Shown: one piece after another, positions 5,226 through 36,704 of the stretch
How positions within the stretch are numbered: the stretch's first letter is position 1
Layout: each line of letters begins with the position of its first letter
NCBI GenBank assembly: GCA_029834535.1
Contig: JAQMWT010000133.1
Coordinates: 18,350 to 82,349, forward strand
Origin: Chrysophaeum taylorii
Taxonomy: Eukaryota; Sar; Pelagophyceae; Pelagomonadales; Pelagomonadaceae
Length of the DNA: 64,000 bases
Direction: 5' to 3'
The notes under the pieces: model-generated
Seen by the model: the letters and a program-made list of their open reading frames with translations, nothing else
Databases searched by the model: none
Told to the model about the DNA's origin: nothing
Position numbers and translations under genes: made by a program

Positions 5226-8200
5226 ATGACGTCGAGCAAGCCGCAATGGTGGTCCCCCTGGAGCGCCGAAGCGAGTTGGCAGGCTCAGGCACGCAAAACG
5301 GCAGCTGCTCTTGACAAGGAAGCGTTCCTGACGTGGCTCGACGGTGCTGGTGTCGAAGCTGCCAACCTATCTTACGGCGAGGTCTGGATCCGCTCGGCTT
5401 TCGTGGCGAACTGGCTTCTCGGGGATATCGGCCTCGCGCTGGGGGATCGCGCCATGCTCGTGTACGCTCCCGGCCCCGAGTTCTTCGTCGCCTTCGTCGC
5501 GTGTCTTCGCGCTGGCGTTTTGGCCGTACCGAATTATCCTCCAGACCCGGCCCAGCTTCAACGAGGCCTCGAGAAGCTGGACCTCGTAACCACAAACTGC
5601 GGTGCCGAGGTGGGTCTTACCGACAGTATTGTGAATAAGCTGCGCGTGACGACGAGCATATGGCACTCGTGGCCCGGGATACGCTGGTACAACACGGAGG
5701 GCCTTGGGGAGAGTGACAACGATGACGACCCGAGTAGAGCACTGTTCCATCGGCTGGTGAGCTCACGCGCGGAGTTTGTACGGTCGACATCGTCTCGCCA
5801 CTTTGTTACGAGCGACGATGCCGCCTCGGCGTTGTTGGGTGACGCCCGGCGATCAGAGGACGCCAGACCGCCAGTCGCCACCGTCTCCCTCAGCCACAGC
5901 CTCGACACAGGGTCGAGTGAATCACTACAGGAGCAGAGCACCAGTATTCTCGAGCAGTCTCCCCCCGATGACGTTGCCTTCCTCCAATTCACGTCCGGCT
6001 CGACAGGGTGCGTTTGTCACAGGGGCCGAAATTTCCTGATTGCCTTCCACAGGGACCCCAAGGGCGTCATGATTTCACACGGCAACATCTGGCATAATCT
6101 CAACGATATTTTCTTGCCCGCGCAGCGCCGATGTTTCGACCTTCGTTTGGGTGAGGCCAGCAGTAGCCGTTTGTGCAATCTGCACGAACCGTCGGTGCGC
6201 GTCCTGGCGGTCTCGTGGCTACCGCAGTTCCATGACACGGGTTTGATGCTGACGTTGCTCGGTCCGTTCTGCGCAGGCTACCACATGGTCAACTTCTCGC
6301 CTCTCTCGTTCCTCGCCGACCCCCTCATGTGGATGCGCGCCGTGTCGAAGTACCGCGCGCTGTGGACCGCGGCACCAGATTTCGGCTACCAGCTGTGTAC
6401 AAAGCGCGCCGCCGGCGCGTATATCAGCGACATCGACCTGAGTTGTGTGGTCATTCTGGCTTGTGGCGCTGGCCAGCGATGCGTGCCTTCGATCCTCCGC
6501 GAGTTCGCCGCGTACTTCGCCATTCACTGCAAGTTGCAGGACGACGGCAATCGCAGCTTATTCGTGCCGAACTATGGTCTGGCTGAGCACGTAGTCGCGA
6601 CGTGCGCCGAGGCCGAGGGCATCATAACATCCCGGCGGCGGCCAGACCTCGCCTCGTGTGGCTCCGAATTCCAGATTGACCTCCGCATCGTCGATGCGGA
6701 GACGCGATGCGTCGCTCCAGACGGTACGCCCGGCGAGCTGTGGTTGAGCTCTGGATCGGTCGCCCTGGGCTACTGGGGCAAACCGGACCTCAGCTCCGAG
6801 ACCTTTCACGCCCGACTCGAGCCGGACGATGGCAAGGTATACCTGAGGACGGGCGACGAGGCGTTCATCGAGGACGGCCGCCTCTTCATTTGCGGCCGAA
6901 TCAAAGACATGATCATCATCGGCGGCGAAAATTATTACAGCGACGACGTCGAAATTGCTGCGACGGAGGCCATGGTCGACGCCGTGAGATCGGGATGTAT
7001 TGCCGCCTTTTCGGTCGTCGGCTCTGACGACGACGACGAGTGGTTGTGTATCGTGCTTGAAGTCCGGGATCACGCTGCATCCGAGTGCGATGTTCTCGCA
7101 TCGACGCTCACAAAATGCGTTCGCAAAGCGGTTGGTCTGGCACCGCGCCGTGTCGTGTTCATCAAGCAGAAGACCATTCTAAAAACGACGAGCGGGAAGC
7201 TACGGCGCCGGGCGATTCGAGACGCGCTGTTAGCTGGCGAGCTAAGCGTCGTCTTTGATTCGAACCCAACACTCGGCGGCAAGCGACAGACACTATCCAG
7301 CGGGGCTGATTGCGGGCCCAACGTTTCCCGGAGCAACTCAGCAGATGATGGCGCCAATTTTTCCCAGTGGCTATGGCGGCTCGTCAGCTCTGTGAGTGAT
7401 ACGGTAGGTTACCCCCTCGATTCAACGGGCCTGGCACCACCAGAGGAGGTGGATACAGAATTTACCGCAGAAGCAGATCTGACATTAAAGTGGTCCGAGT
7501 GCTTGCTCGCTGAAGCTCAGGCTCAGGGACGCTGCTACGAGCTTTCTGACTTTCTGGGCGTGTGGGAAGTGCTCGACGACCACTACGTGATTCGAAAATT
7601 CGAAATCAAGGCCGAAAACACGATCGACGACAGTCGTAACCAGAGTCACAATCAAACACATGCTGGGATTTGCCTAAGAAAGTCTATGCAACACTGTGAT
7701 GAATCACAGCGAAGATTTTTTTATTTCCACAGGTAAAAACCTCTACTGCCAGCACCATCTGGGCTGTGGGCGTTGCGCGCACGAAGGTGCTGTGGTTGCA
7801 AAGATAGTCATATCGAAGGACGACATCGAGACGCGACCCTATGTTCAAGAGGACATAATGGCACAACTGCCGCACAAGGTCTATGTGCTTGTCCTCCATC
7901 AAAATGGCGTCGTCAAGTTCGTCCCTCACGCCTCGAGCTCGCGTCTCCTTCTCGCGGCGCTTGATAGCTGCGACAGCCTCGATAAGGAGATGAATCTTGC
8001 GCATTCGACAGAGTCGTGGAAGAGGCGATGCGTTGTGTTGTGTGAGCGCGCATTTTTAACGTGACTTTTTGAGTCTAGGCACGCTGATAAATTTGGGTGC
8101 TTCTGCTTTGGCATCGTTGTTGGCAAGAGCCGAGATCGCAGAATGATTCGCTGCAATCGATGGGCAACGGACAACCGCTATTTCTGGTCCGCTATCAACG

Positions 8201-11200
8201 TCACAACTGACTTTCATCCAGACGAAGTCGGTGAGCATCTCGTTGCGCCTGGCCTCGCGGCGCACTTCGGTGTCGACGGCGCGACTCCTTCCGGCGCGCT
8301 CCGCGACGCTATTGTTGCGATCGTTGGTGAAGGCTCTGGCCAGGAAGCCATCGCTTCAAGAGCAGCAAGTGCGGTCGCCAAACCAGCTGTCGATGATTTA
8401 TTGTTTGCGTGGCAATCCGACAGCACCGAGGGCTTGCACTCTCTCGGCTTGGCTCTCGTCGACCGCGTAGCGGACGAGATCGTTGGACTCTTTCCGCCAC
8501 ACACCTCGCTTAAAGACCATCCAGATATGCCAAGCATACTGCGGCAGCTTGACGTTCCGGAGGAGCTGATGCATCGTCTCGAATACGACGAGTCTGTTGT
8601 CTATGTCCCAGCTTTCGTCGATGCGGTCAAGTCAGACCTCATCAAGATGCCCGTGGTCCTGCACGTCGCGCAAGATCTCGAGATCAAAAAGCCCGGCCGC
8701 GGTCTCCCCATTTCAGATGAGCGCGCTGCCGCCGACCTGCGCCATGCGGTTGTATATTGTTTCGCTCTTCACACGCTCGCGATCTCGATGATGCGGCCGT
8801 CTGCGCCACCAGGAAACTCGGACTTCTTGCTCGACTTTTTGAAGGCCCAAGAAGCTGCCATAAATCGCGCGAATGATACCATGGTAGTGAATACATCTTC
8901 ACCTTTCGAGTATGACCCTCATGTGTTCCAGTTGACTCTACGCAAATCAAACGCAGGCTCATGAAACACGAGGCGGTTCTATCGGCTATGCGGAACATAG
9001 CCGAGACGAGACGCGATTCGAGTCAACTCGCCACCGCGCGCATAGCTGGGGGGCTGCTTGCGGACAATATCATAATGGCAGCCATCGAGGACGTATCGAA
9101 AATTTTCGACCGCAATGCACGCGCTACGCCAGTGTCCGTGTTCTCAATTGCGGTTGTGCAAGGCAAAATGCATACGCGTGCTGAGCACGGTCGTCTCAGG
9201 CGCTGGTTTCGAGCTCGCTTACTGGAGCTGCGTGCTTCAACAACCAACCGCATGTGTAGAAAATTTTACGAAGACAATGTATTCAGGTGTCGCAGAGTTA
9301 GTGCGCTTTGAAACGTGCCCAGCTATGATGTCGGAATGGGTCCAAGTGTATATCGTGTGGAATCTTACGTTTGGGTTAGCAGAGCCGCGCCCTTTCCTGC
9401 CTCACGTCGCGAAGCTTTTGGTACCATGCTTGCTATCGTTGACGAACGAAGACCCAGCTTTGTTTCCATGGATGCGTCTCGTGACATTAAATATGCACGC
9501 CACTTCTTTGGCGTGTCATCCCGAGCTTAGGCAGATATCAGCGACGACGTATGACTGGCGTTCGACAGAGACTAGCAATGCTTTGGGCGCGCTCAGCGAA
9601 CGTCTTGCGTGCCAATCAGAGTTCGAACTTTCTCGTGGTTCTTGTCATCTGACGTGTTAAACATTATATGTTGAGTTTGTATCGCTTTCGTGTGAAATTT
9701 CGACCTCAGGTGCCAACTCTCAAATGCAATCTCGGCGAAGATCGCCAAAAACAGCCGATCTCGGTGCAACGTGAAAAGCGATGCACAGCTCGCAACGTTG
9801 TTTTTAAAGACGCGGCACGAGATCCTCGAGAGGTATCAGATGTTGCATGGTGCGGCGCTTAACAATCAAAGTGGTGCTCTCGGCATCGGATGGCTCGACA
9901 AGATTCGGTCGCGCGTGATGAGACGAGGCGAGGCGCCCGAAGAAGAACCTAATGGAAGTGGGAACTCGATCCGTTGTTGCGGGAATGGGCTCTCTGAAAA
10001 GCAAGATGTCGTCGAAATAGTAGACGTTTGTGACAAGTCCGAGATGGCAGAGCGGACAGATTCTCGGGAGATGAAGGTGCGACGAGAACAGCTTGCGTAC
10101 GTACGAGCGACTCTCCTTCACATTCTCGCGTCGATGGCAGAGAGCGACATCGACGCGCAGACAACGTCCGTCGCACATCTTGGCCTGTCTTCCCAAGACG
10201 CTCTGGTGGTACAGACAAATCTGCGGCGAGAGTTGTCTGTGGAAGTGCATTTCGATACGTTTATGGATCCAAATATTTCAATCGCAGAATTGGCCGATAA
10301 GATTCTGTGTATAGCGCGTGGCGAAGATGAGCACCAGATCGAGCCTCTTGCCGCACTCCCCAATGATTTCGTTCTCGAATCTACTTTGAGGTTGCCGCAA
10401 TGGGCGTGTGACATGATTCAGGCATTGTCGGTGGTCGTCGTCATCGTCTTGGTCTCGATCGCGCTCGTTCCGTCGTATCACTGGGGGCACTGGGTACAGT
10501 GGCGAAAGAAGTCGATAGGCTCAAGTCGCATCGACGTGAGGCGCGACGACGCCCCGTGGTCACACATCAAAGTAGAGGGCACGAGCAAGGTCTTCGTCTA
10601 TGGTCTAGGAATTCCACTCGTGATTCCGACATTCATGATATCACTCTCGCTGGTTGCAGTCAGAGTCCAACAGTCTTCGATCATAATTTAGTCCACGCCA
10701 AGAACGCAGAGGCTGTATGCTGCGTGTGTGTGTGTGTGACTCGTGTGAATAATCCTCGCTCGTAGGTTGTCATATGTGCCAAGTGGATATTGGTTGGTCG
10801 TCGTCGGCCGACCGCCGTGGTTGTCGGATCCTTGGATTATTTGCGCTGGTGGGTCGTTGAACGGCTCTTCGATCAGTGGGAGTTATGGTGCGGCGAGTTC
10901 ATCAAGGACACGATTCTCATGAACGGCTTCTACCGTGCCTGTGGTTGCAACGTTTCGATTTTTGGTGGTGCACGGATCGACACCTTCTTGCGAGATGTCG
11001 ACCTGGTCGAAGTCGGTCCCGGAGCTTCGATTGAGGGAAACGTCTACGCACGCACTTTTTTTCGCGAGGGCCGGGATTTAGGCCTGCGTTTTGCGCCCGT
11101 GACTATTCGGGGCACTGTCGAAAAATCTGCGGTCGTGCAGCTAGGGGTCGAAATTGATGACGGAGCCATCCTGAAGCATCTGAGCGTCGCGCCGCCCTTT

Positions 11201-12791
11201 TCTCGCCTGGAAGGGGGAGCCAAGACTACTATGACGCACATGTCTCTGCCCTCGTGTTGGATCGAGCTCGCCAAGCTCGCTTCGCTCGTGCCGCTGCTGT
11301 ACGCGCCGTTCGTGACGACGTCTGCCGTTGTCGCTTGGACAATGCGGCGCGTCGGGTGGTTTGCCCTAACTTTCCGTTACCGCCCTCTCCTTTGGTGGGT
11401 AATCTCGTACTACAGCGGGCTTCTCGTATTGGTTCTTTTCTCTATCATATGCAAGTGGCTGCTGATCGGTCGCGCGCACTCCGGTTCTCCTCGTTCGGTC
11501 GTGAGAGCGTGGTTTGTGGACTATGTTTGGCACCGAATCGTAGTGCGGCTCTCTGGGCTGTTGTTTCAAGGCAATGGTATCGCGACAAATCTCCTCCTGC
11601 GGGCGCTTGGTGTTGACATGGCTTGGTCAGGCAGATTTGTCTCGGCTGATGCGGTTTCGGCTTCGGAAGCAGACGTGATTACCGTCGAGGCTGACGCGCA
11701 AATATCGCAGTGTGTTGTTTCATGTGTCACGGCCGCCACCTCTTACGCTCCGGTACGCATCGGACGCGACGCCGAGGTAGGACTCGACGCTTACATTGAG
11801 GCCGGCACCGAGATAGGAGATGGTTCCGTGGTCGCGCAGCAGACGCTGGTTTCGTGCAGCTTGGCAGCAGGGTCGGTGAAATTGGGCTCGGCCACATTTC
11901 GGCATGCAGGTGGCGCTCAAAAGCGAAAGATCGTTGATCCAACTGGGGTCGATCGCCTCGCCGTCATCATCGCCCCCTTCGTATCTCGGGCCCTCTTGCT
12001 CGCGCTCGTGGGGTTCGTCGCCCTCATCCCCAGCTACGAACTAGCCGTTCGAGTATTGTTTGGTTCGGCGACCTTCTACGATGACGACGAGTACCTGAGG
12101 GGTGTGAAACGTGATGGTTCGCGCTGGACGCCGCCCGTCGACCGGAACATTGGTATCCTCTGCATTGGCCCCATCGCCCTGGTCGCCTTCGCGTGCATGT
12201 CATTCGTTTTCCGGTTTTGGGTGTATCTTATCCTTGGCAACTTCCGCAACCTTGACGGGACTTCGCGGTGGGTGTTCGAAAAATTCCACGAGTACCAGTT
12301 CATGATAATCTATGCCTCGCACAAATTTATCATGCCTCTCGTACGCGGTAGTCGTTTGGCGATTCTCTACATGCGTTTCTGGTGAGATACGTTCACCTTG
12401 ATTGCTTTCGTGCGTACGGCGACCAATCGGCCTGTTCCTGTTGCGTAGGGGCGCCAACGTCGACGCGTCGGCATTCGTCAACAATCAGGTCTTCTACGAG
12501 CCACCGCTTCTCTCTCTCGAATCGGGCTGTGTTGTCGATGAATGCGTGCGGCATCTTGGCCACGTCTTCATACATAACATCAGTGTTTTTTGAAACAAAT
12601 AAATCTTGTGCTGCAAGTTGTACTGACTTCTTGCGCAGGTATTCATGGGAGGGGGCCTAGTTTTCGCGCCGAATCGCATCTGCTCTGGCGCCATCCTGCA
12701 CCCGAACGTCATCACCTGGGCCGGCGACGTGGTACCCTCCGACGTGGTGTTGGGCCCGCTTACACGTGTGACAACGATTCGAAGGTGCTGA
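5226..12791 (+). CDS. Fatty acyl-AMP ligase / carrier protein / left-handed beta-helix membrane synthase, copy 1
   Basis: Ten exons, by comparison with copies 2 and 3: 5226-6007, 6053-7635, 7733-8000, 8079-8909, 8957-9120, 9200-9608, 9710-10652, 10766-12381, 12449-12563, 12639-12791. They sum to 6864 nt, an exact number of codons (2287 aa). Residues about 1-660 are a fatty acyl-AMP ligase: FTSGSTG joined by splicing to DPKGVM, WLPQFHDTGL, TAAPDFGYQLC, YLRTGD, GRIKDMIIIGGENYY and KTTSGKLRR. Residues about 680-1440 are unrecognised and helix-rich. A carrier domain follows (LGLSSQDAL; the phosphopantetheine Ser is probably Ser1507), then two or more membrane helices and hexapeptide/LbH segments between further membrane helices, as in the terminal domain of bacterial Pls/PosA synthetases. 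Expected role: activate a fatty acid as acyl-AMP, load the carrier, and process it at a membrane. The product is unknown. Introns 8001-8078 and 9121-9199 have GC donors. Exon calls not tested against RNA. Confidence 0.85.
9609..9709 (+). mobile_element. Introner-like intron present in copies 1 and 3, absent from copy 2
   Basis: The 101-nt intron starts with gtgccaa and the next exon starts with the same gtgccaa, so the donor GT lies in a 7-bp direct repeat. Copy 2 is continuous at this point. Near the ends are imperfect inverted repeats, clearest in the copy 3 version (30732-30846): tcgagctttctc at the 5' side and gagaaaattcga at the 3' side, 10 of 12 complementary. These are the marks of an intron made by insertion of a small DNA transposon with target-site duplication. 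Confidence 0.65.
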
Positions 12792-15700: not shown

Positions 15701-16747
15701 AGATTCCCTTTGCTCGAGGAGGAGGCTGCCAGCAAGGAGCCGAGCAAGGCCAAGGCCATGGCAAATTTGTAATTTGCCGGGCGACGTCTGGGAGAAGCGC
15801 CGCTCTGTGGTCCACGGAGCGGCCAATCGCCGCCGCTTTCGGGATGACCGTCGCGAAGCTCTGTTGTCTAAAGTCCTTCATGTACGGCCACACCAGCAAG
15901 GGCGCCAAGGCCAAGAACAACAAGGGGAATGCGGTCGTGGAAGAGGTCCGCTTCCACGTCGACAAGCACCTGCTTCTGCCTCCGACGCCAGCACCAGCTC
16001 GACAAAACAAGCGGCTGCCCCCAAAGATGGGCCCGCCGTGCCGCCCTCGCTGACGACGACAACAGCCTGGCCGAGAGCGAGATTGTCGGTTTCTTCGGCG
16101 ATCTTGTCGATGACTCCGAAGTCGATGCTTGATTCCTGCCCGCGCTGCGGGCCCCGCGACTCGCCGTGCACCTCCAAGTCACCACCCTCGAGACACATCC
16201 GCCCTCACTGGTGGGGCTTCTCGTGGCCCTTCCCTTCCTCGAATAACGCCCACCCCGTCTCGAATGTCTGCCTCGTCCCACAAAAGGCCGCTTTCGTGCG
16301 CGAAAGTAGAACAAAACTCGCCTCAGAAAGACCCGGCGTTGACGCGACTGCCACACCTTGCAGTGCCAGCCACTTCTGCGGGTAAACTTCCCCGGTGTGG
16401 GCGCGGAGGACATCGAGTCTGTGTTGCTGGCTCGGCCAGGGGTCGACCTGATGTAAAAAAAAACTGGCGCATCTATAACGTTGCTTGCCCGGAGCGTCCC
16501 AAAACCATTTTTTGCCAATCTGGTCAAGTTCTTTCTTTTCGTCGTCGGGGCCCGAACACATTTCGCGCTTTTATTTCTGCCACAAAATACGCAAATAGTA
16601 CGCAAATTTTACTCAGGGAGTGTTTTGATGTCGTAAGAGGGGATAACGGTCGGATTCTGTTCTTGGAATAATGCCACAATAATCATCGAAATGAATAGCC
16701 CTATTTGCACGAACACTCTCAATTGAGGTGCGCGCGCTGAACTTGTT
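12792..16747. other. Spacer between synthase copies 1 and 2; no intact gene seen
   Basis: 12990-13560 matches the DNA downstream of copy 2 (24310-24790), so the duplicated unit extends past the stop codon. From 13.6 to 16.6 kb there are only broken protein-like stretches. The best are on the minus strand at 15.9-16.5 kb, for example FGVIDKIAEETDNLALGQAV and a hydrophobic FLALAPLLVWPYM. They lie in different frames and have no recognised family. I would treat the interval as decayed DNA. Confidence 0.5.
13312..13441. repeat. 65-bp tandem duplication
   Basis: Two near-identical 65-bp units, each beginning tcgagaattgccaaaggtga and containing ctaccgccatatgccc. The equivalent sequence downstream of copy 2 (about 24658) is a single diverged unit. 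Confidence 0.85.
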
Positions 16748-16782
16748 GACACCGCCCGCGCGCCGCAGAGGAGGACACCGCT
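16748..16782 (+). promoter_or_regulatory. 35-bp 5' leader block, synthase copy 2
   Basis: Identical to the block before copies 1 and 3 and placed directly before the start codon. The sequence further upstream shares only short boxes with the other copies. Confidence 0.5.
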
Positions 16783-19700
16783 ATGACGTCGAGCAAGCCG
16801 CAATGGTGGTCCCCCTGGAGCGCCGAAGCGAGTTGGCAGGCTCAGGCACGCAAAACGGCAGCTGCACTTGACACGGAAGCTTTCCTGACGTGGCTCGACG
16901 GTGCTGGTGTCGAAGCTGCCAACCTATCTTACGGCGAGGTCTGGAGCCGCTCGGCTTTCGTGGCGAACTGGCTTCTTGGGGATATCGGCCTCGCGCTGGG
17001 GGATCGCGCCATGCTCGTGTACGCTCCCGGCCCCGAGTTCTTCGTCGCCTTCGTCGCGTGTCTTCGCGCTGGCGTTTTGGCCGTACCGAATTATCCTCCA
17101 GACCCGGCCCAGCTTCAACGAGGCCTCGAGAAGCTGGACCTCGTAACCACAAACTGCGGTGCCGAGGTGGGTCTTACCGACAGTATTGTGAATAAGCTGC
17201 GCGTGACGACGAGCATATGGCACTCGTGGCCCGGGATACGCTGGTACAACACGGAGGGCCTGGGGGAGAGTGACAACGATGACGACCCGAGTAGAGCACT
17301 CTTCCATCGGCTGGTGAGCTCACGCGCGGAGTTTGTACGGTCGACATCGTCTCGCCACTTTGTTTCGAGTGACGATGCAGCCTCGGCGTCGTGGGGCGAC
17401 GCCCGACGATCGGAGGACGCCACACCGGCAGTCGCCACAGTCTCCCTCAGCCTCAGCCTCAACACAGGGTCGAGTGAATCACTACTTCATGACGACCAGC
17501 ACGAAGTCGCATATCTATCACGCGCGCACGGTGACCAGGAAGAAGGGAACAGTCTCCTCGAGCAATTCCCCCCCGACGACATTGCCTTCCTCCAATTCAC
17601 GTCCGGCTCTACAGGGTGCGTTTGTCACAAGGCCAAAAGCTTCCTGATGGTCTTTCTTTCTTTTTTTCTTTCTTTCGCAGGGATCCCAAGGGCGTCATGA
17701 TTTCACACGGCAACATCTGGCACAATCTTAACGAAATATTCTTGCCTGCTCAACGCCGAGCCCTCGACGTGCGCTTAGGTGAGGCCAAGAGCAACCGTTT
17801 GCACGATCTCCAGGACCACTCGGAACGTATCGTTGCGGTCAGCTGGCTCCCGCAGTTCCATGACCTGGGCTTGGTGGCCATGCTGCTCGGGCCGTGGTGC
17901 GCAGGCTACCACATGGTCAGCTTGTCGCCTCTCTCGTTCCTCGCTGACCCCCTCATGTGGATGCGCGCCATGTCCAAGTACCGTGCACAGTGGACCGCGG
18001 CGCCAGACTTTGCCTACCAGTTATGTACGAAGCGCGCCGCCAATGCCGATGTCAGCGACATCGACCTTGGCTGTGTGGTTTACTTGGTTGGCGGGTCGGG
18101 CCAGCGGTGCGTGCCTTCGACCTTGCGGGAATTCGCGGCGTACTTTGCCATTCATTGCAACCTCCCTGACGACGGCGGCCGCGGTATCTTTGTACCGAAT
18201 TACGGCCTGGCAGAGCATGTAGCTCCGACGTGCGGCGAGGCCGAGGGCATCATAACGTCCCGGCGGCGGCCAGACCTCGCCTCGTGCGGCTCCGAATTCC
18301 AGATTGACCTCCGCATCGTCGATGAGGAGACGCGGTGCGTCGCTCCAGACGGTACGCCCGGCGAGCTGTGGTTGAGCTCTGGCTCGGTCGCCCTGGGCTA
18401 CTGGGGCAAACCGGAACTCAGCTCCGAGACCTTTCACGCCCGACTCGAGCCGGACGATGGCAAGGTATACCTGAGGACGGGCGACGAGGCGTTCATCGAG
18501 GACGGCCGCCTCTTCATTTGCGGCCGAATCAAAGACATGATCATCATCGGCGGCGAAAATTATTACAGCGACGACGTCGAAATTGCTGCGACGGAGGCCA
18601 TGGTCGACGCCGTGAGATCGGGATGTATTGCCGCCTTTTCGGTCGTCGGCTCTGACGACGACGACGAGTGGTTGTGTATCGTGCTCGAAGTCCGCGATCA
18701 CGCTGCATCCGAGTGCGATGTTCTCGCATCGACGCTCACAAAATGCGTTCGCAAAGCGGTTGGTCTGGCACCGCGCCGTGTCGTGTTCATCAAGCAGAAG
18801 ACCATTCTAAAAACGACGAGCGGGAAGCTACGGCGCCGGGCGATTCGAGACGCGCTGTTAGCTGGCGAGCTAAGCGTCGTCTTTGATTCAAACCCAACAC
18901 TCGGCGGCAAGCGACAGACACTATCCAGCGGGGCTGATTGCGGGCCCAACGTTTCCCGGAGCAACTCAGCAGATGATGGCGCCAATTTTTCCCAGTGGCT
19001 ATGGCGGCTCGTCAGCTCTGTGAGTGATACGGTGGGTTACCCCCTCGATTCATCAGGCCTGGCACCACCAGAGGAGGTGGATAGAGAATTTACCGCAGAA
19101 GCAGATCCGACATTGAAGTGGTCCGAGTGCTTGGTCGCGGAAGCTCAGGCTCAGGGACGCTGCTACGAGCTTTCCGACTTTCTGGGCGTGTGGGAAGTGC
19201 TCGACGACCACTATGTGATTCGAAAATTCGAAATCAAGGCCGAAAACACGATCGACGACAGTCGTAACCAGAGTCACGATCAAACACATGCTGGGATTTG
19301 CCTAAGAAAGTCTATGCAACACTGTGATGAATCACAGCGATGATTTTTTAATTCCACAGGTAAAAACCTCTACTGCCAGCACCATCTGGGCTGCGGGCGT
19401 TGCGCGCACGAAGGTGCTTTGGTCGCAAAGATAGTCATATCGAAGGACGACATCGAGACGCGACCCTATGTTCAAGAGGACATATTGGCGCAACTGCCGC
19501 ACAAGATATATGTGCTTGTCCTCCATCAAAATGGCGTCATCAAGTTCGTCCCTCACGCCTCGAGCTCGCGACTCCTCATCGCGGCGCTTGATAGCTGCGA
19601 CAACCTCGATAAGGAGATGAATCTCGCGTATGTGGCAGTGTCTCGGAAAAAAAAGCTATGCGTTGTTTTGTGTGCGTGCGCATTTTTAACGTGACTTTTT

Positions 19701-22700: not shown

Positions 22701-24304
22701 TGAGCGTCGCGCCGCCCTTTTCTCGTCTGGAAGGGGGAGCCAAGACTACTATGACGCACATGTCTCTGCCCTCGTGTTGGATCGAGCTCGCCAAGCTCGC
22801 TTCGCTCGTGCCGCTGCTGTACGCGCCGTTCGTGACGACATCTGCCGTTGTCGCTTGGACAATGCGGCGCGTCGGGTGGTTTGCCCTAACTTTCCGTTAC
22901 CGCCCTCTCCTTTGGTGGGTAATCTCGTACTACAGCGGGCTTCTCGTATTGGTTCTTTTCTCTATCATATGCAAGTGGCTGCTGATCGGTCGCGCGCACA
23001 CCGGTTCTCCTCGTTCGGTCGTGAGAGCGTGGTTTGTGGACTATGTTTGGCACCGAATCGTAGTGCGGCTCTCTGGGCTGTTGTTTCAAGGCAATGGTAT
23101 CGCGACAAATCTCCTCCTGCGGGCGCTTGGTGTTGACATGGCTTGGTCAGGCAGATTTGTCTCGGCTGATGCGGTTTCGGCTTCGGAAGCAGACGTGATC
23201 ACCGTCGAGGCTAATGCACAATTATCGCTCTGCGTTGTTTCTTGTGTCACGGCCACCTCCTCTTACGCTCCGGTACGCATCGGACGCGACGCCGAGGTAG
23301 GACTCGACGCTTACATTGAGGCCGGCACCGAGATAGGAGATGGTTCCGTGGTCGCGCAGCAGACGCTGGTTTCGTGCAGCTTGGCAGCAGGGTCGGTGAA
23401 ATTGGGCTCGGCCACATTTCGGCATGCAGGTGGCGCTCAAAAGCGAAAGATCGTTGATCCAACCGGGGTCGATCGCCTCGCCGTCATCATCGCCCCCTTC
23501 GTATCTCGGGCCCTCTTGCTCGCGCTCGTGGGGTTCGTCGCCCTCATCCCCAGCTACGAACTAGCCGTTCGAGTATTGTTTGGTTCGGCGACCTTCTACG
23601 ATGACGACGAGTACCTGAGGGGTGTGAAACGTGATGGTTCGCGCTGGACGCCGCCCGTCGACCGAAACATTGGTATCCTCTGCATTGGCCCCATCGCTCT
23701 GGTCGCCTTCGCGTGCATGTCATTCGTTTTCCGGTTTTGGGTGTATCTTATCCTTGGCAACTTCCGCAACCTTGACGGGACTTCGCGGTGGGTGTTCGAA
23801 AAATTCCACGAGTACCAGTTCATGATAATCTATGCCTCGCATAAATTTATCATGCCTCTCGTACGCGGTAGTCGTTTGGCGATTCTCTACATGCGTTTCT
23901 GGTGAGATACGTTCACCTTGATTGCTTTCGTGCGTACGGCGACCAATCGGCCTGTTGCTGCTGTGTAGGGGCGCCGACATCGACGCGTCGGCATTCGTCA
24001 ACAGCCAGCTATTCTACGAGCCACCGCTTCTCTCTCTCGAAGCGGACTGTGTTGTCGATGAATGCGTGCGGCATCTTGGCCACGTCTTTATACATAACAT
24101 CAGTGTTTTTGAAACAAATAAATCTTGTGCTGCCACTTGTACTGACTTCTTGCGCAGGTATTCATGGGAGGGCGCCTAGTTTTCGCACCGAATCGCATCT
24201 GCTCTGGCGCCATCCTGCACCCGCACGTCATCACCTGGGCTGGCGACGTGGTACCCTCCGACGTGGTGTTGGGCCCGCGTACACGTGTGGCAAAGTCCGC
24301 GTGA
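16783..24304 (+). CDS. Fatty acyl-AMP ligase / carrier protein / left-handed beta-helix membrane synthase, copy 2
   Basis: Nine exons: 16783-17615, 17681-19263, 19360-19627, 19709-20539, 20587-20750, 20839-22172, 22286-23901, 23969-24083, 24158-24304. They sum to 6891 nt, an exact number of codons (2296 aa). Domain order is as in copy 1. The intron after FTSGSTG is 65 nt here against 45 and 46 nt in copies 1 and 3, and only its removal joins the two halves of the ligase in frame. Copy 2 lacks the intron at copy 1 9609-9709. Its ligase is diverged over about 17700-18230 (WLPQFHDLGLVAMLLGPW; TAAPDFAYQLC), which includes the FAAL acyl-binding region, while the sequence after it and the beta-helix exon are nearly identical to copy 1. 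A shift in substrate preference is possible. Intron 20751-20838 has a GC donor with good consensus (gcaagt). This is the best-preserved copy. Confidence 0.87.
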
Positions 24305-25760: not shown

Positions 25761-25990
25761 CATTACTAATCAATTTGGTTTGTGGTAGCCGGCTGAGTAA
25801 TGTGGCAACTGCAGAAAGTTTCTTACGCTCGTTGTCAGGTCCCTTGTGTCGGGACCTCAAAATCTTTCCAGAAATAATGCACAAACAGCACTGAGAGAGG
25901 ATAATAATTCGAGCCGAGAGGGGATAACCGTGGGATTCCCAAAAAGTAGCCCTCTTCCTCATCTCCATTTGAGGTGCACGCGTCGAACTT

Positions 25991-26025
25991 GACACCGCCC
26001 GCGCGCCGCAGAGGAGGACACCGCT
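25991..26025 (+). promoter_or_regulatory. 35-bp 5' leader block, synthase copy 3
   Basis: Identical to the leader of copies 1 and 2 although the gene behind it is broken. Either the duplication is recent or the block has been homogenised by gene conversion. Confidence 0.45.
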
Positions 26026-28957
26026 ATGACGTCGAGCAAGCCGCAATGGTGGTCCCCCTGGAGCGCCGAAGCGAGTTGGCAGGCTCAGGCACGCAAAACG
26101 GCAGCTGCTCTTGACAAGGAAGCGTTCCTGACGTGGCTCGACGGTGCTGGTGTCGAAGCTGCCAACCTATCTTACGGCGAGGTCTGGAGCCGCTCGGCTT
26201 TCGTGGCGAACTGGCTTCTCGGGGATATCGGCCTCGCGCTGGGGGATCGCGCCATGCTCGTGTACGCTCCCGGCCCCGAGTTCTTCGTCGCCTTCGTCGC
26301 GTGTCTTCGCGCAGGCGTTTTGGCCGTACCGAATTATCCTCCAGACCCGGCCCAGCTTCAACGAGGCCTCGAGAAGCTGGACCTCGTAACCACAAACTGC
26401 GGTGCCGAGGTTGGTCTTACCGACAGTATTGTGAATAAGCTGCGCGTGACGACGAGCGTATGGCACTCGTGGCCCTGGATACGCTGGCACAACACGGAGG
26501 GCCGGGGAGAGGGTGACAACGATGACGACCCGAGTAGAGCACTCTTCCATCGGCTGGTGAGCTCACGCGCGGAGTTTGTACGGTGACGCCCGACGATCAG
26601 AGGACGCCAGACGACCGCCAGTCGCCACCGTCTCCCTCAGCCACAGCCTCGACAGGGTCGAGTGAATCACTACAGGACCAAAGCACCAGTCTTCTCGACG
26701 AGTCTCCCCCCGATGACATTACCTTCCTCCAATTCACGTCCGGCTCGACAGGGTGCGTTTGTCACAGGGCCCGAAAATTTCCTGATTGCCTTCCACAGGG
26801 ACCCCAAGGGCGTCATGATTTCACACGGCAACATCTGGCATAATCTCAACGATATTTTCTTGCCCGCGCAGCGCCGATGTTTCGACCTTCGTTTGGGTGA
26901 GGCCAGCAGTAGCCGTTTGTGCAATCTGCACGAACCGTCGGTGCGCGTCCTGGCGGTCTCGTGGCTACCGCAGTTCCATGACACGGGTTTGATGCTGACG
27001 TTGCTCGGTCCGTTCTGCGCAGGCTACCACATGGTCAACTTCTCGCCTCTCTCGTTCCTCGCCGACCCCCTCATGTGGATGCGCGCCGTGTCGAAGTACC
27101 GCGCGCTGTGGACCGCGGCACCAGATTTCGGCTACCAGCTGTGTACAAAGCGCGCCCCCGGCGCGTATATCAGCGACATCAACCTGAGTTGTGTGGTCAT
27201 TCTGGCTTGTGGCGCTGGCCAGCGATGCGTGCCTTCGATCCTCCGCGAGTTCGCCGCGTACTTCGCCATTCACTGCAAGTTGCAGGACGACGGCAATCGC
27301 AGCTTATTCGTGCCGAACTATGGTCTGGCTGAGCACGTAGTCGCGACGTGCGCCGAGGCCGAGGGCATCATAACATCCCGGCGGCGGCCAGACCTCGCCT
27401 CGTGTGGCTCCGAATTCCAGATTGACCTCCGCATCGTCGATGCGGAGACGCGATGCGTCGCTCCAGACGGTACGCCCGGCGAGCTGTGGTTGAGCTCTGG
27501 CTCGGTCGCCCTGGGCTACTGGGGCAAACCAGAACTCAGCTCCGAGATCTTCAGCGCCCGACTCGAGCCGGACGATGGCAAGGTATACCTGAGGACGGGC
27601 GACGAGGCGTTCATCGAGCACGGCCGCCTTTTTCATTTGCGGCCGAATCAAAGACATGATCATCATCGGCGGCGAAAATTATTACAGCGACGACGTCGAA
27701 ATTGCTGCGACGGAGGCTATGGTCGACGCCGTGAGACCGGGATGTATTGCCGCCTTTTCGGTCGTCGGCTCTGATTACGACGACGAGTGGTTGTGTATCG
27801 TGCTTGAAGTCCGGGATCACGCTGCATCCGAGTGCGATGTTCTCGCATCGACGCTCACAAAATGCGTTCGCAAAGCGGTTGGTCTGGCACCGCGCCGTGT
27901 CGTGTTCATCAAGCAGAAGACCATTCTAAAAACGACGAGAGGGAAGCTACGGCGCCGGGCGATTCGAGACGCGCTGTTAGCTGGCGAGCTAAGCGTCGTT
28001 TTTGATTCGAACCCAACACTCGGCGGCAAGCGACAGACACTATCCAGCGGGGCTGATTGCGGGCCCAACGTTTCCCGGAGCAACTCAGCAGATGATGGCG
28101 CCAATTTTTCCCAGTGGCCATGGCGGCTCGTCAGCTCTGTGAGTGATACGGTGGGTCACCCCCTCGATTTGACGGGCCTGGCATCACCGGAGGAGCTGGA
28201 AAGAGAATTTACCGCACAAACAGATCCAACATTAAAGTGGTCCGTCCGAGTGCTTGCTCGCGGAAGCTCAGGCTCAGGGACGCTGCTACGAGCTTTCTGA
28301 CTTTCTGGGCGTGTGGGAAGTGCTCGACGACCACTACGTGATTCGAAAATTCGAAATCAAGGCCGAAAACACGATCGACGACAGTCGTTACCAGATTCAC
28401 AATCAAACACATGCTGGGATTTGCCTAAGAAAGTCTATGCAACACTGTGATGAATCACAGCGAAGATTTTTTTTTTTTCCACAGGTAAAAACCTCTACTG
28501 CCAGCACCATCTGGGCTGTGGGCGTTGCGCGCACGAAGGTGCTTTGGTCGCAAAGATAGTCATATCGAAGGACGACATCGAGACGCGACCCTATGTTCAA
28601 GAGGACATAATGGCACAACTGCCGCACAAGGTCTATGTGCTTGTCCTCCATCAAAATGGCGTCGTCAAGTTCGTCCCTCACGCCTCGAGCTCGCGTCTCC
28701 TTCTCGCGGCGCTTGATAGCTGCGACAGCCTCGATAAGGAGATGAATCTTGCGCATTCGACAGAGTCGTGGAAGAGGCGATGCGTTGTGTTGTGTGAGCG
28801 CGCATTTTTAACGTGACTTTTTGAATCTAGGCACGCTGATAAATTTGGGTGCTTCTGCTTTGGCATCGTTGTTGGCAAGGGCCGAGATCGCAGAATGATT
28901 CGCTGCAATCGATGGGCGACGGATAACCGCTATTTCTGGTCCGCTATCAACGTCACA

Positions 28958-29316
28958 TGATCGCCGACTGCGGTTGCGATGGAGGACGGTGCCTCATGAA
29001 TCCTGAGCCTTGCGAGGGCATCCGCCCTCCCGGCGTAGGTTGGCACCTATTCGCCTCCCGGGCGGGCCGGTTGGCAGCCGGAACGTTCGCAGTGGGACGG
29101 GGTATGGCCGGGGGGCGAAGACGGAAGGTTATCGACGAGTTGGTTGTCAGTCACATCGCGGTCTCCTCGTCGCATGGCGACAAGCTTGATGGTCACTCTC
29201 CGCCGACCGACCTTTCGGCGCTCCTCGTGTACAGGCCCGTGATTCCGGACTGGCTCCTGTCGGTCCGGCCTGGCTCCCATGCTCGGGAGAGGTCTGAAGT
29301 TAGTTAGTTAGTTAGT
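28958..29316 (+). mobile_element. Short non-LTR retroelement, copy B, 359 bp, inserted in synthase copy 3
   Basis: Comparison with copy 1 gives the exact empty site. The insertion is bounded by a 13-bp target duplication, tatcaacgtcaca, at 28945-28957 and 29317-29329. The element begins tgatcgccgactgcgg and ends with ttag repeats. It is the reverse complement of 2153-2529, minus a few bases at the head. Its internal frame starts MIADCGCDGGRCLMNPEPC and stays open for 116 codons. It breaks an exon, so the insertion came after the duplication. Confidence 0.85.
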
Positions 29317-30731
29317 TATCAACGTCACAACTGACTTTCATCCAGACGAAGTCGGTGAGCATCTAATCGCGCCTGGCCTCGCGGCGCACTTCGGTGTCGA
29401 CGGCGCGACTCCTTCGGGCGCACTCCGCGACACTATTGTTGCGCTTGAGGGCGAAGGCTCTGGCCAGGAAGCCATAGCTTCACGAGCAGCGAGTGCGGTC
29501 GCCATACCAGCTGTGGATGATCTGTTGTTTGCGTGGCAATCCGACAGCACCGAGGGCTTGCACTCTCTCGGCTTGGCTCTGATCGACCGTGCAGCGGAGC
29601 AGATCGTTGGACTCTTCCCGCCAGACACCTCGCTCAAAGACCACCCAGATATGCCAAGCATACTGCGGCAGCTTGACGTTCCGGAGGAGCTGATGCATCG
29701 TCTCGAGTACGACGAGTCTGTTGTCTATGTCGCAGCTTTCGTCGAGGCGGTCAAGTCAAACCTCATCAAGATGCCCGTGCTCCTGCACGTCGCACAAGAT
29801 CTCGAGATCAAAAAGCCCGGCCGCGGTCTCCCCATTTCAGATGAGCGCGCTGCCGCCGACCTGCGCCATGCGGTTGTTTATTGTTTCGCTCTTCACACGC
29901 TCGCGATCTCGATGATGCGGCCGTCTGCACCATAAGGAAACTCGGACTTCTTGCTCGACTTTTTGAAGGCCCAAGAAGCTGCCATAAATCTCGCAAACTA
30001 CGCGGTGGACATAGACAAGTCTTCGCCCTTCGAGTATGACCCTCATGTATTTAAATCGAGTAAACGCAAATAAAACGCAGGCTCGTGAAACACGAGGCGG
30101 TTCTATCGGCTATGCGGAACATAGCCGAGACGAGACGTGATTCGAGTCAACTCGCCACCGCGCGCATATCTGGGGGGCTGCGCGGACAATATCATAATGG
30201 CAGCCATTGAGGACGTATCGAAAAATTTCGACCGCAATGCACGCGCTACGCCAGAGTCCATTCTCAATTGCAGTTGTTCAAGGCAAAATTCATATGCATG
30301 CTGAGCACGGTCATCACAGGCGCTGGTTTCGAACTTGCTTACTGGAGCTGCGTGCTTCAACAACCAACCGCACGTGTAGACGTCTTCACGGAGACAATGT
30401 ATTCAGGTGTCGCAGAGTTCGTATGTTTTGAGACGTCCCCAGCTATGATGTCGGAATGGGTCCAAGTGTATATCGTGTGGAATCTTACATTCGGGTTAGC
30501 AGAGCCGCGCCCTTTTCTACCTCACGCTGCTAAGCTCCTGGTGCCATGCTTGCTATCGTTGACGAACGAAGACCCGGCGTTATTTTTGTGGATACGTATC
30601 GTGACGCTGCACACGCACGCCACTTCTTTGGCATGTCACCCCGAGCTTAGCCAGATATCAGCGACGACGTATGACTGGCGTTCGACAGAGACCACCTCTG
30701 CCTTGGGCGCCGCGCTGAGCGAACGTCTTGC

Positions 30732-30846
30732 GTAACAACCAGAGTTCGAGCTTTCTCGTGGTTCTCGTCCGTTCACGTGTTAAGCATTACATTTATCCGC
30801 GTTTGGAGGAGTTGTCTCGCTTTCGCGAGAAAATTCGAGACCCCAG
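30732..30846 (+). mobile_element. Introner-like intron in synthase copy 3
   Basis: Equivalent of copy 1 9609-9709: same position, 115 nt, donor gtaaca, acceptor ccccag. Its imperfect 12-bp terminal inverted repeats (tcgagctttctc and gagaaaattcga) are the clearest of the set. Copy 2 has no intron here. Confidence 0.6.
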
Positions 30847-33800
30847 GTGCCAACTCTCAAATGCAATCTCAGCGAAGATCGCCAACAACAGCCGAACTCA
30901 GCGCAAAGTCGAAAGCGATGCACAGCTTGCAACGTTGTTTTTAAAGACGCGGCTTGAGATCCTTGAGAGATACAAGTTGTTGCACGTTGCGGCATTAAAC
31001 AATCAAAGTGGAGCCCTCGGCGACGGATGGCTCGAGAAGATTCGATCGCGCGTGACGAGACTGGACAAGGAGGCCGGAGACGAACACGCAGGCGGCGAAA
31101 CCTCGACCCATTGCGGAAGCGGGCGCTCTAGAAAGCAAGGCATCGTCGTCCGAATATTAGACCGTTGTGGTCGAGTTCGAGATGGCAGCGCCGATAGACT
31201 CTCTGGAGATGAATGTGCGACAAGAACAGCTAGCGTATGTACAAGCTACTCTTCTTCACATTCTTGCATCGATGGCAGAGACCGATATCGACGCTAATAG
31301 AGCATCCGTCGCACAACTTGGCCTTTCTTCCCAAGACGCGCTGGTGGTGCAGACACAGTTGCGGCGGGTTTTGTCCGTTGAAGTGCACTTCAACACACTT
31401 ATGAATCCGAATCTTGCGATTGCTGAGTTGGCTAACGAGATTCTTCGTACTGCGCGCGAGGAAATTGAGCCGCGGCTCGCAGCGCTCGTGCCAATCCCCG
31501 ACGGCATTGAACTTGGGTCCACAACAAGACTGCCGCAATGGGTCGTCGACATGGTTCAGGCGCTCTCGGTGATCGTCGTTGTAATCTTGGTGTCGATCGC
31601 GCTCGTTCCATCGTATCACTTTGGGCGCAGGGTGCAGTGGCGTACCAAGTCGCTAGGTATGAACATCAAAGCGCATCGAGGTTCGGCGTGACAATGCACC
31701 GTGGTCACACATCAAGATTGCCGGGACGGACCGCGTCTATACTTATGGTCTCTTACTACCGTTGGTTATCCCGCTCTTCATGGTGTCGCTTGCAGTGATC
31801 ACCATTCTTGCAAAGTGGCTTGTGATCGGTCGCTACCGTGTCGGAGCAACATACCGAGGCACGCCGTAATTTTTTGTGTTGGTGGCTCGTCGATAGGCTT
31901 CTCGACCAATTCGACTTTTGGGTTGGCGCATTCAACCACGACACGCTGTTCGTTAACGTGTTCTGTTTAGTAATGGGCGTGCACATCTCGGTTCGTGCGT
32001 CTGTCGAAGTTATGTTCCGATAGTTCGACCTGATCTCAGTTGGGGAGCACGCACGAGTAAGCGGCCTTTGTTACGCCCGTATGTTTGAACCCGATGGCCG
32101 TATGCGCTTCGCGCGCGTTGTCATCGAACCACACTCAATGGTCCAATCAGGTAGTGTTGTGATGCCAGGCTGCAAACTAGAGGACGGTGCTGTGCTAGAC
32201 AACGGCGCCGCAACAACGAGCGGCCAACTTCTGGCCCGTGAGAGCCTGTATCAATCGAGCCCGGCGCAATTGGCGGGCGTTGTGAACATCGCGCACGTCG
32301 TCGTCGACACGTCGCCGCCGATCAATTTGTTCTGTTTCGAGATCGCGAAACGTGCGACGCTCGCGTGCTTCCTCTACGGATCGCTGGTCGGGTCGAATGT
32401 GCTCTAGAGTATCTTTTGCGGCAGCTCGATTGGTACTCGTGGCGATTTCGATATCGCGAGCTTATTTACTTCGTATCGGGTTATTTCTTGGCGATGTTTA
32501 TCTCGGCAGGTGTTGGCGTTGTGGTGTTCAAGTTGTTGCTTATCGGCCGTTTACGTCTAGGGGTACACAAGTGCGAAGATTGGACGTGGCGTCTGCGGAC
32601 ATGGTTCGTTGAGTGGATTTGGTATCACTTGTCTTGTTGAAATTCGGGGCTTTGGTGTGGGAAGAAAATGGCTTGTTGAGTTGACGTTGATGAAGGCTTT
32701 GGGCGTGCGCGTTCACTCTACGGCAAAAAACATGGCAAGCGTCTTTTTCTTTTCACCTGTCGAAGCGGACTTGATCGAGGTCGCAACAGCAGTGTTCTTG
32801 CTTCATCTCCCAATGATACTTTTGTTGTGAATAGCGCAATGAGCACCCTCTGATATCACTGACTATTCGCCACCTCTCAGGTCAGCGAGTTTGCAACTCT
32901 GTCCGTGTTTGTAGTTTCTAGCTAAGGATTCACAGGAGAGTATAAACCGATCAGGATCGGGGTGGGGGCACAAGTTGGTCTTCGCTCACGACTCAACGCC
33001 GGCGTGGTCCTCGAAGACGGCGCAGTCGTGGGACATCAAACGGTGGTACCGGAGAACTTCGTCGTCCAGACGGGGTCGACGTACTTTGCGTCCAGCGTCT
33101 TCTCGCGCACGACTGTGCCTGTGGACGGTGAACAGAAAAATAAAAAGGTACGACACGGCATTGTTGCGCTCATTCCTGCGTGCGAATGCGCCGTTTGGCT
33201 ACTCTACAAGAGAGCAAATTACTTCAAATCTGACTACTACAACAACGGATTCCGTGTCCGCGACTCCGGGCGAATCCGAGTATGGCAGCCCCCGGTGGCG
33301 CGCACTCCCGCGCTCGTGCTCGTCGGACCCATCGCCCTCGTTGCTTACGCGTCAATGGCAGTAGCCTTCCGTGCATGGCAGTGGCTGATAATGCGCGACT
33401 GGAAAAGCGCAAGCGACACCGTGTGGTCGCCTTGGCAAAACTTGGCATACATGGATTACCAGATGATCTTCTTCAGCCTTTGTGGACAAATCATGCCACT
33501 GATCCGCGGTAGTCGACTCGCCATTGCATACATGCGTTTGTTTGGCGCAAGGGTTGAATCTACCGCCTTTGTGAATAGCTACTACCTCTTTGAACCACCG
33601 TTGCTCACGATCGGTACTGACGCCGTCTTAGACGAATTCTCGGCGAATTATGCTCACGTAGTGAGGCGGTGTCCTAGACGCATGCTTGGGTGTGCTAGAA
33701 AGAAGTCGTGTACGAATAGGTTGACGCAGAAACGCAGTCGTCTGACATATTGGTTTGTGCTCAGGTCTTCGAGCACGGGCACCTCACTTTCCAGAGAAAG

Positions 33801-34010
33801 ATAATTGGCAGAGGCGCGATTTTGCATCCGGGATCCATTACTTGGGCTGGCGACGTCGTCCCTGCTGGCGTCGTATTAGGCCCCAAAGCACAGCTTGAAA
33901 CCCGTGACACTTTGATCTACCCACCTGGATCGTACCTCCAAGGCTGTCCGGCCCGAGACTACGCGACACTGCTCTACAGTTCTCGTGCAAAGCACACGCA
34001 GCTTCTATGA

Positions 34011-35879: not shown

Positions 35880-36704
35880 GTTGTCGGCTGCGATCGACGA
35901 AACATTCAGCGCTTACATTGAGGCCGGCACCAAGATAGGCGATGGCTCCGTCGTCGCGCAGCAGAAGGTGGTTGCATTGCATTGCATTGCATTGCATTGC
36001 GTTGCATTGCATTGCGTTGCATTGCATTGCATTGTATTGCACTGCATTGCACTGCATTGCACTGCATTGCACTGCAGCGGGGTCTGTCAAATTGGGCTCG
36101 GCCACATTTTGGCAAGCAGGTGTTCCTCAAAAGCGAATGATCGTTGATCCAATCGGGGTCGAGCGCTGACATCGTCGCCTCCTTCGTATCTTCCGGTTTT
36201 TGGTGTTTCTTATCCTCGGTAACTTTCGCATCCTCGACGGGACTTCGCGCGGTGGGCGTTCGAAAAACTCCGCGAGTACCAGTTCATCACGATAATCTCA
36301 CCGCCTCTCGTACGCGGCAGCGGATTGGCGCTTCTCTACATGCGTTTCTGGTAGATACATCCGCCTCGTTTGTTTTTGTGTTCGGCGATCAATCGGTGGT
36401 TGCTGGTGCACAGGGGCTTCAACGGCATTCGTCAACAACCAGCTATATTCTATGAGCCGCCGCTTCTCTGTCTCGAAGCGGACAGCGAGGAAGTCGATGA
36501 GTGCGTGCGGCACCGCTTCACGCCTCGAAAAAAAAAAAAACTTGTGCTGCTGCTACGCGTTTAGTCGCGCAGGTATTCATCCATCCATCCATCCATATGG
36601 GTTGCCCAGGTGCTGCTTTCGCACAAAATTGCATCTTCTCTCGTGTCATCCTGCGCGTCATCACATCGGCCGGCGACGTGGTACCTACCGTCCGCGTCGT
36701 GTGA
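35880..36704 (+). pseudogene. Synthase copy 4, 3' fragment
   Basis: Pieces of the beta-helix and terminal exons are recognisable in order. AYIEAGTKIGDGSVVAQQK matches copy 1 at about 11790. After the pentanucleotide tract come VKLGSATFWQAG, the membrane segment with an internal deletion of about 200 nt, LALLYMRFW with a stop in place of the splice donor, a remnant of the next exon (YEPPLLCLEAD), and AGDVVP of the last exon. No ligase or carrier part remains. It marks the 3' edge of the array and abuts the start of the GT2 gene. Confidence 0.8.
35971..36076. repeat. ATTGC pentanucleotide tract inside the copy 4 relic
   Basis: About twenty attgc/actgc/gttgc units. They replace a short stretch that in copies 1 and 2 reads tttcgtgcagcttggcagc, between conserved beta-helix sequence on both sides, so the tract expanded within the dead gene. 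Confidence 0.9.

Follow-up and report, generated by a model that had tools for sequence, protein, structure and literature searches.

Between positions 5226 and 36704 of a 64,000-nucleotide stretch of the genome of Chrysophaeum taylorii, a golden-brown alga of the pelagophytes (GenBank assembly GCA_029834535.1, contig JAQMWT010000133.1, positions 18,350 to 82,349; hereafter the window), a tandem array combines sequences resembling a fatty acyl-AMP ligase (FAAL), an acyl carrier, and the membrane module that terminates bacterial epsilon-poly-lysine synthetase (Pls). This raises the question of whether a eukaryote encodes these parts as one polypeptide and, if so, what such a protein would do. 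Judging from reading frames and domain matches, the array almost certainly encodes a single-chain FAAL-carrier-Pls-type synthase. The locus as a whole seems best explained, and we consider this reasonably probable, by a membrane protein like epsilon-poly-lysine synthetase in which the amino-acid adenylation (A) domain has been swapped for a FAAL.

Gene structure and domain order of the array

The tandem copies appear as blocks of 85-96% identity at 16728-24293 and 25974-31715 when positions 4900-13200 are compared with the window by blastn; shorter, weaker blocks (75-91%) lie at 35910-36512. Together with splicing and tblastn, this comparison bore out the two full copies, one pseudogene, and one 3' fragment described in an earlier sequence-only reading of the locus. 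Copy 1 (5226..12791, forward strand; 2335 amino acids) was assembled from ten exons (5226-6007, 6053-7695, 7733-8039, 8079-8922, 8973-9155, 9214-9608, 9710-10658, 10766-12381, 12449-12584, and 12639-12791, including the stop codon), and copy 2 (16783..24304, forward strand; 2349 amino acids) from nine (16783-17615, 17681-19323, 19360-19669, 19709-20552, 20603-20783, 20839-22178, 22286-23901, 23969-24104, and 24158-24304). Both were spliced by hand, guided by a three-copy alignment, with introns that are all GT-AG and 36-107 nt long. The spliced frames are stop-free over 2335 and 2349 codons; the earlier reading had anticipated open frames correctly, while its length of about 2290 codons was too low. 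The two proteins are 88% identical. A dN/dS of 0.32 across 2327 codons indicates that both copies have been maintained as protein, and the ratio lies below 1 in all four regions (FAAL 0.25, middle 0.30, carrier 0.32, terminal 0.41). Bacterial contamination was ruled out by the short GT-AG introns within the genes and the 70.8-Mb host genome.

Some details of the copies differ. Near intron 5 of copy 1 (9156-9213), where the acceptor is uncertain, a 2-nt difference means that the frame is kept only with a TTCGAG acceptor and not with that of copy 2; if this acceptor is unused, copy 1 would be frameshifted and copy 2 alone certainly intact. The intron at 9609-9709 of copy 1, also found in copy 3 by alignment, is precisely absent from copy 2 (21230-21245); the string GTGCCAA stands at its start and again just past its end. 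Synonymous divergence (dS) between copies 1 and 2 is 0.20 in the FAAL part, 0.85 around the carrier, and only 0.036 in the terminal part, over which the alignment shows the copies to be near-identical; a recent gene conversion over roughly 10400-12600 would fit this drop.

The FAAL domain of copy 1 (5226..7220, forward strand, approximately residues 1-650) carries FTSGSTGDPKG at residue 255, SWLPQFHD at 315, YGLAEH at 435, and KTTSGKLRR at 638, and matches the Pfam AMP-binding family with E 2.6e-44. KTTSGKLRR and the P-loop, which we take to be functional motifs, are present in both copies, as is the carrier serine. Among NCBIfam models, the fatty-acid--AMP ligase PRK05850 scored highest (256 bits), with FAAL21 at 221 bits, whereas the acyl-CoA ligase PRK06187 reached 106 bits and the model of amino-acid adenylation 91. 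The solved chains nearest to the second exon of copy 1 were a 'Polyketide synthase' (185 bits) and Saframycin Mx1 synthetase B (167); the solved FAALs FadD23 and FadD32 reached 146 and 126 bits, while an amino-acid adenylation chain scored 80 and the CoA ligase FadD8 only 45. Nor is the domain of copy 1 DltA-like: the DltA chain 3e7w, at 51 bits, stayed well below both FadD23 (146) and the top-scoring chain (185). By these scores the ligase appears closer to FAALs than to acyl-CoA ligases or amino-acid A domains, PRK07768 excepted.

Between ligase and carrier lies a middle region of approximately 800 amino acids (7221..9989 in copy 1, forward strand), which the sequence-only reading had missed. 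Even with E allowed to reach 10, two pieces of it from copy 2 found no match in Pfam, and among 251 proteins compared by BLAST no match better than E 0.4 was found outside C. taylorii, real matches being confined to C. taylorii proteins. A PH-like reading of part of this region was a guess and was dropped. The acyl carrier that follows (PP-binding; 9990..10360 in copy 1, forward strand) contains the motif LGLSSQDAL, and residue 1546 is taken to be its attachment serine. Its Pfam match (E 4.1e-5, 24.2 bits, cut-off 20.8) is repeated at about E 4e-5 in copy 2, again exceeding the cut-off. In both copies the carrier stands directly ahead of the terminal module, as in Pls and PosA. It could plausibly be armed, since the phosphopantetheinyl transferase family matches at four places in the genome, all exceeding the cut-off.

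The Pls/PosA-like terminal module occupies 10390..12791 in copy 1 and 21912..24304 in copy 2 (residues 1629-2349), both on the forward strand. On a crude Kyte-Doolittle profile with a threshold of 1.60, each copy has six hydrophobic peaks in three pairs, every pair followed by a beta-helix-like block; in copy 1 the pairs lie at residues 1613-1645/1677-1713, 1872-1891/1908-1939, and 2096-2125/2159-2177. Two bacterial modules (L043 and L045) show seven peaks each. The Pls model TIGR02353 matched both copies (copy 1, E 6.7e-20, 71 bits; copy 2, E 1.2e-18, 67 bits), as the sequence-only reading would have it, though far from the curated cut-off of 423 bits. FAAL, PP-binding, and TIGR02353 models thus all match the spliced proteins, and the domain and structure-chain scores uphold that reading's single chain, in which a FAAL stands where Pls has its amino-acid A domain and is followed by a carrier and a Pls/PosA-like terminal module. 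Hexapeptide repeats fell just under the Pfam cut-off. A sequence search of the PDB with the terminal module gave ten weak matches, none better than E 0.057; most were hexapeptide acetyltransferases, but an adhesin and a ribosomal protein were among them, and the result proves nothing. Taken with the alignment and the tree described below, the TIGR02353 matches indicate that the module shares descent with that of Pls and PosA.

One alignment column deserves attention: of its 50 rows, 41 hold His, eight hold Arg, and the remaining one is gapped. When rows are assigned to blocks by distance from the module start, all 38 third-block matches have His, and they span actinobacterial Pls, diatoms, and the window copies (His 2278 in copy 1, His 2294 in copy 2). 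The 11 first-block matches have Arg in eight cases and His in three (two plants and L031). The gap belongs to the chytrid protein P0178, whose match falls between the first and third blocks. Other left-handed beta-helix acyltransferases have an analogous catalytic base, and by this analogy the third-block His is likely to be the base of acyl transfer.

Occurrence in the genome, in other eukaryotes, and in bacteria

Searching the C. taylorii genome (70.8 Mb, 697 contigs) yielded 87 FAAL matches in 38 clusters, of which 31 have a TIGR02353 match no more than 12 kb downstream on the same strand and seven have none; some clusters contain internal stops. These counts, at least 38 FAAL clusters and at least 73 TIGR02353 places, are lower bounds that include broken copies. 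Given 73 matches in 70.8 Mb, chance would provide well under one such neighbour among the 38 clusters. At three loci the two parts share an uninterrupted open reading frame (ORF). A 1170-amino-acid ORF at L029 (contig C390) holds the FAAL C-terminus, the carrier region, and the whole terminal module, and a 1031-amino-acid ORF at L008 (C45) the FAAL core, the carrier region, and the N-terminal half of the terminal module, both without the ~800-residue middle region. The third, at L041 (G000:C451:10001-20000, minus strand), runs for at least 3067 amino acids with TIGR02353 matches inside it, and comprises a pair of nearly identical FAALs, two parts resembling acyl-CoA dehydrogenase, and one terminal module. 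FAAL and terminal parts are therefore fused without any splicing in these frames.

These ORFs bear directly on whether two adjacent genes, or an assembly join, were taken for one. The hand-placed introns and the one uncertain acceptor in copy 1 would speak for such an error, yet it is extremely improbable: beyond the uninterrupted ORFs at three other loci, the deposited C. taylorii gene models P0001-P0003 and proteins of a diatom, chytrids, and plants have the same domain order, and on these grounds two separate genes were rejected. Tandem duplication and divergence, in turn, hint at a family of acyl specificities. On contig C488, several FAAL and TIGR02353 matches lie in long open frames. In another C. 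taylorii protein (P0004, CTAYLR_004312), the FAAL is fused to a PAP2 phosphatase part instead of the terminal module; an HHVTPD motif between the two resembles the HX4D motif of glycerol-phosphate acyltransferases.

The architecture is not the isolated case that the sequence-only reading took it for, as the same order recurs in about thirty places of the C. taylorii genome (broken copies included) as well as in a diatom, chytrids, and land plants. Homologues were sought with copy 2, with the diatom protein P0027, and with the carrier and terminal module of P0008; the last search returned 14 proteins and needed shared exact words, so the reach found is a lower bound. Among 56 proteins (P0027 and P0121-P0175; 55 from Seminavis robusta and one ENA record), 54 scored on both the FAAL and terminal models. 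The Seminavis proteins are 845-2154 amino acids long, with flavin-oxidase-like families in 11 of the 55. Chytrid members come from Gorgonomyces (P0178) and Kappamyces (P0179), and land-plant members from Glycine soja (P0247), Sesbania, and Nyssa (P0249, P0250); the plant proteins, approximately 2200-2350 amino acids long, combine amine-oxidase-like, FAAL, carrier, and hexapeptide parts with a catalase-like match. The architecture was also present in P0008, P0239-P0241, and P0172, and in the EukProt ORF P0007, 1901 amino acids long and labelled by its source as a complete transcript ORF. In P0242, P0244, P0245, and P0248 (Chytriomyces among them), a Pls-like module follows a third kind of ligase, with low scores or none on both the FAAL and the amino-acid model.

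Bacterial relatives were classified with two home-made ligase models, an amino-acid one and a FAAL one, both built from few sequences (six and three). A motif scan of GTDB genome contigs gave 10 stretches with 4 relatives, all four with amino-acid A domains (369-378 bits versus 85-109 for FAAL). At E 1e-30, TIGR02353 matched in two phyla, with 15 genomes positive out of 296 in the first and 27 out of 398 in the second. Of 23 bacterial loci scored, 19 matched a ligase model, every one higher on the amino-acid model, 16 of them clearly and three (L064-L066) weakly (87-110 versus 64-73); in a second set of 29 loci, 27 matched, all of amino-acid type (257-307 versus 57-86). Six loci matched neither model, and three were counted twice (L047, L048, and L069 repeat L043, L045, and L042). 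No bacterial FAAL-Pls fusion was found among the GTDB loci classified, a sample in which cyanobacteria and myxobacteria were not covered as groups and whose E cut-off misses modules as diverged as the algal ones. Within these limits, the sample supports the view that the FAAL exchange would be a eukaryotic feature.

In a tree of 47 terminal modules, 19 of the 22 FAAL-type rows form one branch (ultrafast bootstrap 100, SH-aLRT 98), which stands apart from the 18 rows grouped as bacterial, P0243 and P0246 being counted among the latter. L025 and P0001 were removed and L038 was too short to include; the rows labelled as amino-acid type eukaryotes include L021 and the four proteins with the third ligase type (P0242, P0244, P0245, and P0248), and the one result drawn from the tree is how FAAL-type rows stand apart from the others. 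The remaining FAAL-type rows, L041 and the two from plants, lie outside the main branch on long branches flagged by the tree program. Plants may therefore have acquired the fusion separately.

Known systems and the reaction proposed

Passages of PMC8117764 and PMC4668381 describe Pls as an A and a T domain followed by six transmembrane domains separating C1-C3, the three C domains passing the loaded amino acid from the carrier. The array proteins share with Pls-type synthetases (of epsilon-poly-L-lysine, poly-diaminopropionate, and poly-diaminobutanoate; TIGR02353) the single-chain order of adenylating domain, carrier, and paired membrane segments with three acetyltransferase-like blocks, the conserved third-block His, and the lack of any condensation or thioesterase domain found. 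Unlike these synthetases, they have a FAAL where the defining amino-acid A domain should be, a large middle region, and a terminal module that is much diverged (67-71 bits versus the cut-off of 423). Because the A domain differs despite the shared terminal module, we regard them as an apparent variant of Pls synthetase, related through that module by descent and a candidate eukaryotic family of their own, rather than as plain Pls. Nor, the family suggests, is the terminal module of Pls tied to amino-acid polymers.

Other known systems share parts of the arrangement. In the bacterial FAAL-acyl carrier protein (ACP) didomains and FAAL-started polyketide synthases (PKSs) and nonribosomal peptide synthetases (NRPSs) covered in sections of PMC11837247, a FAAL likewise precedes its own carrier, but the acyl-ACP feeds ketosynthase or condensation domains, whereas in C. 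taylorii a membrane beta-helix-like module follows. The Seminavis proteins, mostly named 'D-alanine--D-alanyl carrier protein ligase', have the same FAAL and terminal module and differ in showing no middle-region match better than E 0.4; by homology, that name appears unfitting. The Glycine soja 'FadD28' (P0247, 2342 amino acids) likewise joins FAAL, carrier, and hexapeptide block; it differs in an amine-oxidase-like domain in front, in a terminal part that includes a weak match to catalase (24.9 bits, cut-off 25), and in a terminal module that the tree places far from the algal clade. DIP2 of animals and fungi also has eukaryotic FAAL-like domains, two of them with a DMAP1-binding domain according to parts of PMC8460268, which describe no carrier or membrane module there.

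The same parts of PMC8460268 report that FAALs of plants are combined with HemY, catalase, and amino-acid-oxidase domains, and the word 'hexapeptide' is absent from the text of that survey. The genome paper of C. taylorii (PMC10366177) lists, in the sections available, N-terminal adenylation-like domains and 'LbH' among atypical synthase domains, together with nine NRPS genes; 'fatty acyl' and 'lysine' are absent from its text. In the portions available of the 2025 FAAL review (PMC11837247), the DIP2 paper, and the S. robusta genome paper, no such protein appeared under the terms tried. The literature searched (main texts as distinct from supplements and figures) thus held no published description of a FAAL-carrier-Pls protein, in agreement with the earlier reading, which knew of no described equivalent and had correctly placed the sequence in a protist. 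The family is nevertheless large, covering 31 of 38 FAAL clusters in C. taylorii and more than 50 proteins in one diatom and reaching wild soybean, and is mostly misnamed in public databases. Of interest for what algal and plant FAALs do, the ligase here forms one chain with its likely carrier and its likely partner in acyl transfer, so that acid, acceptor, and product could be searched for with one protein.

By analogy with these systems, we hold it moderately probable that the acyl group passes from the FAAL to the protein's own carrier, then to the terminal module, and finally to an acceptor. The FAAL would convert a fatty acid and ATP into acyl-AMP, and the acyl group would be loaded onto the phosphopantetheine of the carrier, which would then swing to the terminal module. 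There, a putative beta-helix acyltransferase, with the third-block His as likely base, would transfer it to an amine or hydroxyl of a membrane acceptor, giving an amide or ester lipid at the membrane. The transferred group is most likely fatty acyl because a FAAL precedes the terminal module. Of the earlier description of a 'self-contained lipid or lipopeptide synthase', the lipid part keeps this conditional standing, while the lipopeptide part is without direct support: neither a condensation domain nor a further adenylation domain turned up in the array copies on a Pfam search.

Several observations weigh against the FAAL-carrier-Pls interpretation as a whole. Models not named for FAALs score close to the best ones (PRK05691, NRPS/PKS, 254 bits; PRK07768, 'long-chain-fatty-acid--CoA ligase', 215 bits), and curated cut-offs are missed by every NCBIfam model. 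The segment after YGLAE, the FAAL-specific insertion, looks shorter by eye in eukaryotic members than in bacterial FAALs, so that rejection of CoA is only putative. The scheme does not account for the ~800-residue middle region, and precomputed Pfam calls a carrier in only 4 of the 55 listed Seminavis proteins. In the terminal module, the sixth hydrophobic peak stands at 1.62 against a threshold of 1.60, weak peaks occur elsewhere (four in copy 1, two in copy 2), and none of the 73 genome places reaches the curated TIGR02353 cut-off.

The ligase scores touch on the possibility that another carboxylic acid (aromatic, dicarboxylic, or amino) is activated for a small specialised metabolite, possibly linked to this alga's chrysophaentins. 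FAAL-family models cannot name the acid, the many paralogues suggest varied substrates, and a passage of PMC10366177 considers that N-terminal adenylation domains of algal PKSs could load cinnamate-type starters. We consider this unlikely, as FAAL models and crystal structures far outscore amino-acid and most CoA-ligase types (PRK07768 excepted), and a chrysophaentin-specific role sits poorly with a family that also has members in a diatom, in chytrids, and in plants.

The homology of the terminal module to an amino-acid-polymerising one, the third-block His common to FAAL-type and amino-acid kinds, and the oxidase-like or acyl-CoA dehydrogenase domains of some homologues, which could functionalise the chain, would fit a module that still polymerises as in bacterial Pls, with the FAAL supplying hydroxy- or amino-fatty acids for aliphatic polyesters or polyamides. 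That outcome is decidedly unlikely: one transfer is the simpler reading, since plain fatty acids lack a second nucleophile, and most FAAL-type modules form a separate clade that may have lost iteration. A broader form of the idea is a slightly longer shot still. It posits a widespread, unrecognised eukaryotic class of membrane-bound, self-loading FAAL-Pls synthases that build aliphatic polyesters or polyamides by oligomerising hydroxy- or amino-fatty acids, or else attach these as caps to a surface acceptor; if true, algae, chytrids, and land plants would owe resistant aliphatic polymers, or polymers associated with mucilage, to FAAL-Pls proteins.

The low TIGR02353 similarity, and the Arg that replaces His in 8 of 11 first-block matches, where that block may have lost the residue, could instead indicate a non-catalytic terminal module serving as a membrane anchor for a FAAL-ACP whose acyl-ACP is passed to another enzyme. 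We think this very unlikely, given that the third-block His is kept in 38 of 38 matches across FAAL-type proteins and non-FAAL relatives, and that the module is intact in copies 1 and 2.

Degraded copies and neighbouring genes

Copy 3 (26026..33896, forward strand) is a pseudogene with an internal TGA, insertions, a deletion, and extra frame changes. The in-frame TGA falls among the first 188 residues, alignments with copies 1 and 2 show 2 nt lost near 30180 and a net gain of 7 nt near 31660, and tblastn crosses six frame changes along the copy against four in copy 1 that are explained by introns. TIGR02353 matches it with E 2e-11. Beyond 31666, identity to copy 2 is only 32-59%, and from there on copy 3 is of a different paralogue type. 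A 361-nt insertion at 28958-29318 is read from the alignment as a mobile element with a 12-base target duplication (TATCAACGTCAC). It is short, ends in (GTTA)n, recurs at 2155-2516 of the window, and has at least 41 near-identical genome matches (99-100%), the one in copy 3 counted, consistent with a young family resembling short interspersed nuclear elements. The 3' fragment at 35905..36689 (forward strand) holds pieces of residues 2057-2335 of a fourth copy; because copy 3 already has this 3' part, the fragment is a separate remnant.

The next gene downstream of the array is a long ORF at 36565-39618 with glycoside hydrolase 16 and glycosyltransferase 2 domains. Further along the window, a single ORF at 47348-48814 matches UDP-galactopyranose mutase (GLF, E 6e-66), and the ORF at 62530-63735 encodes a zinc-type alcohol dehydrogenase.

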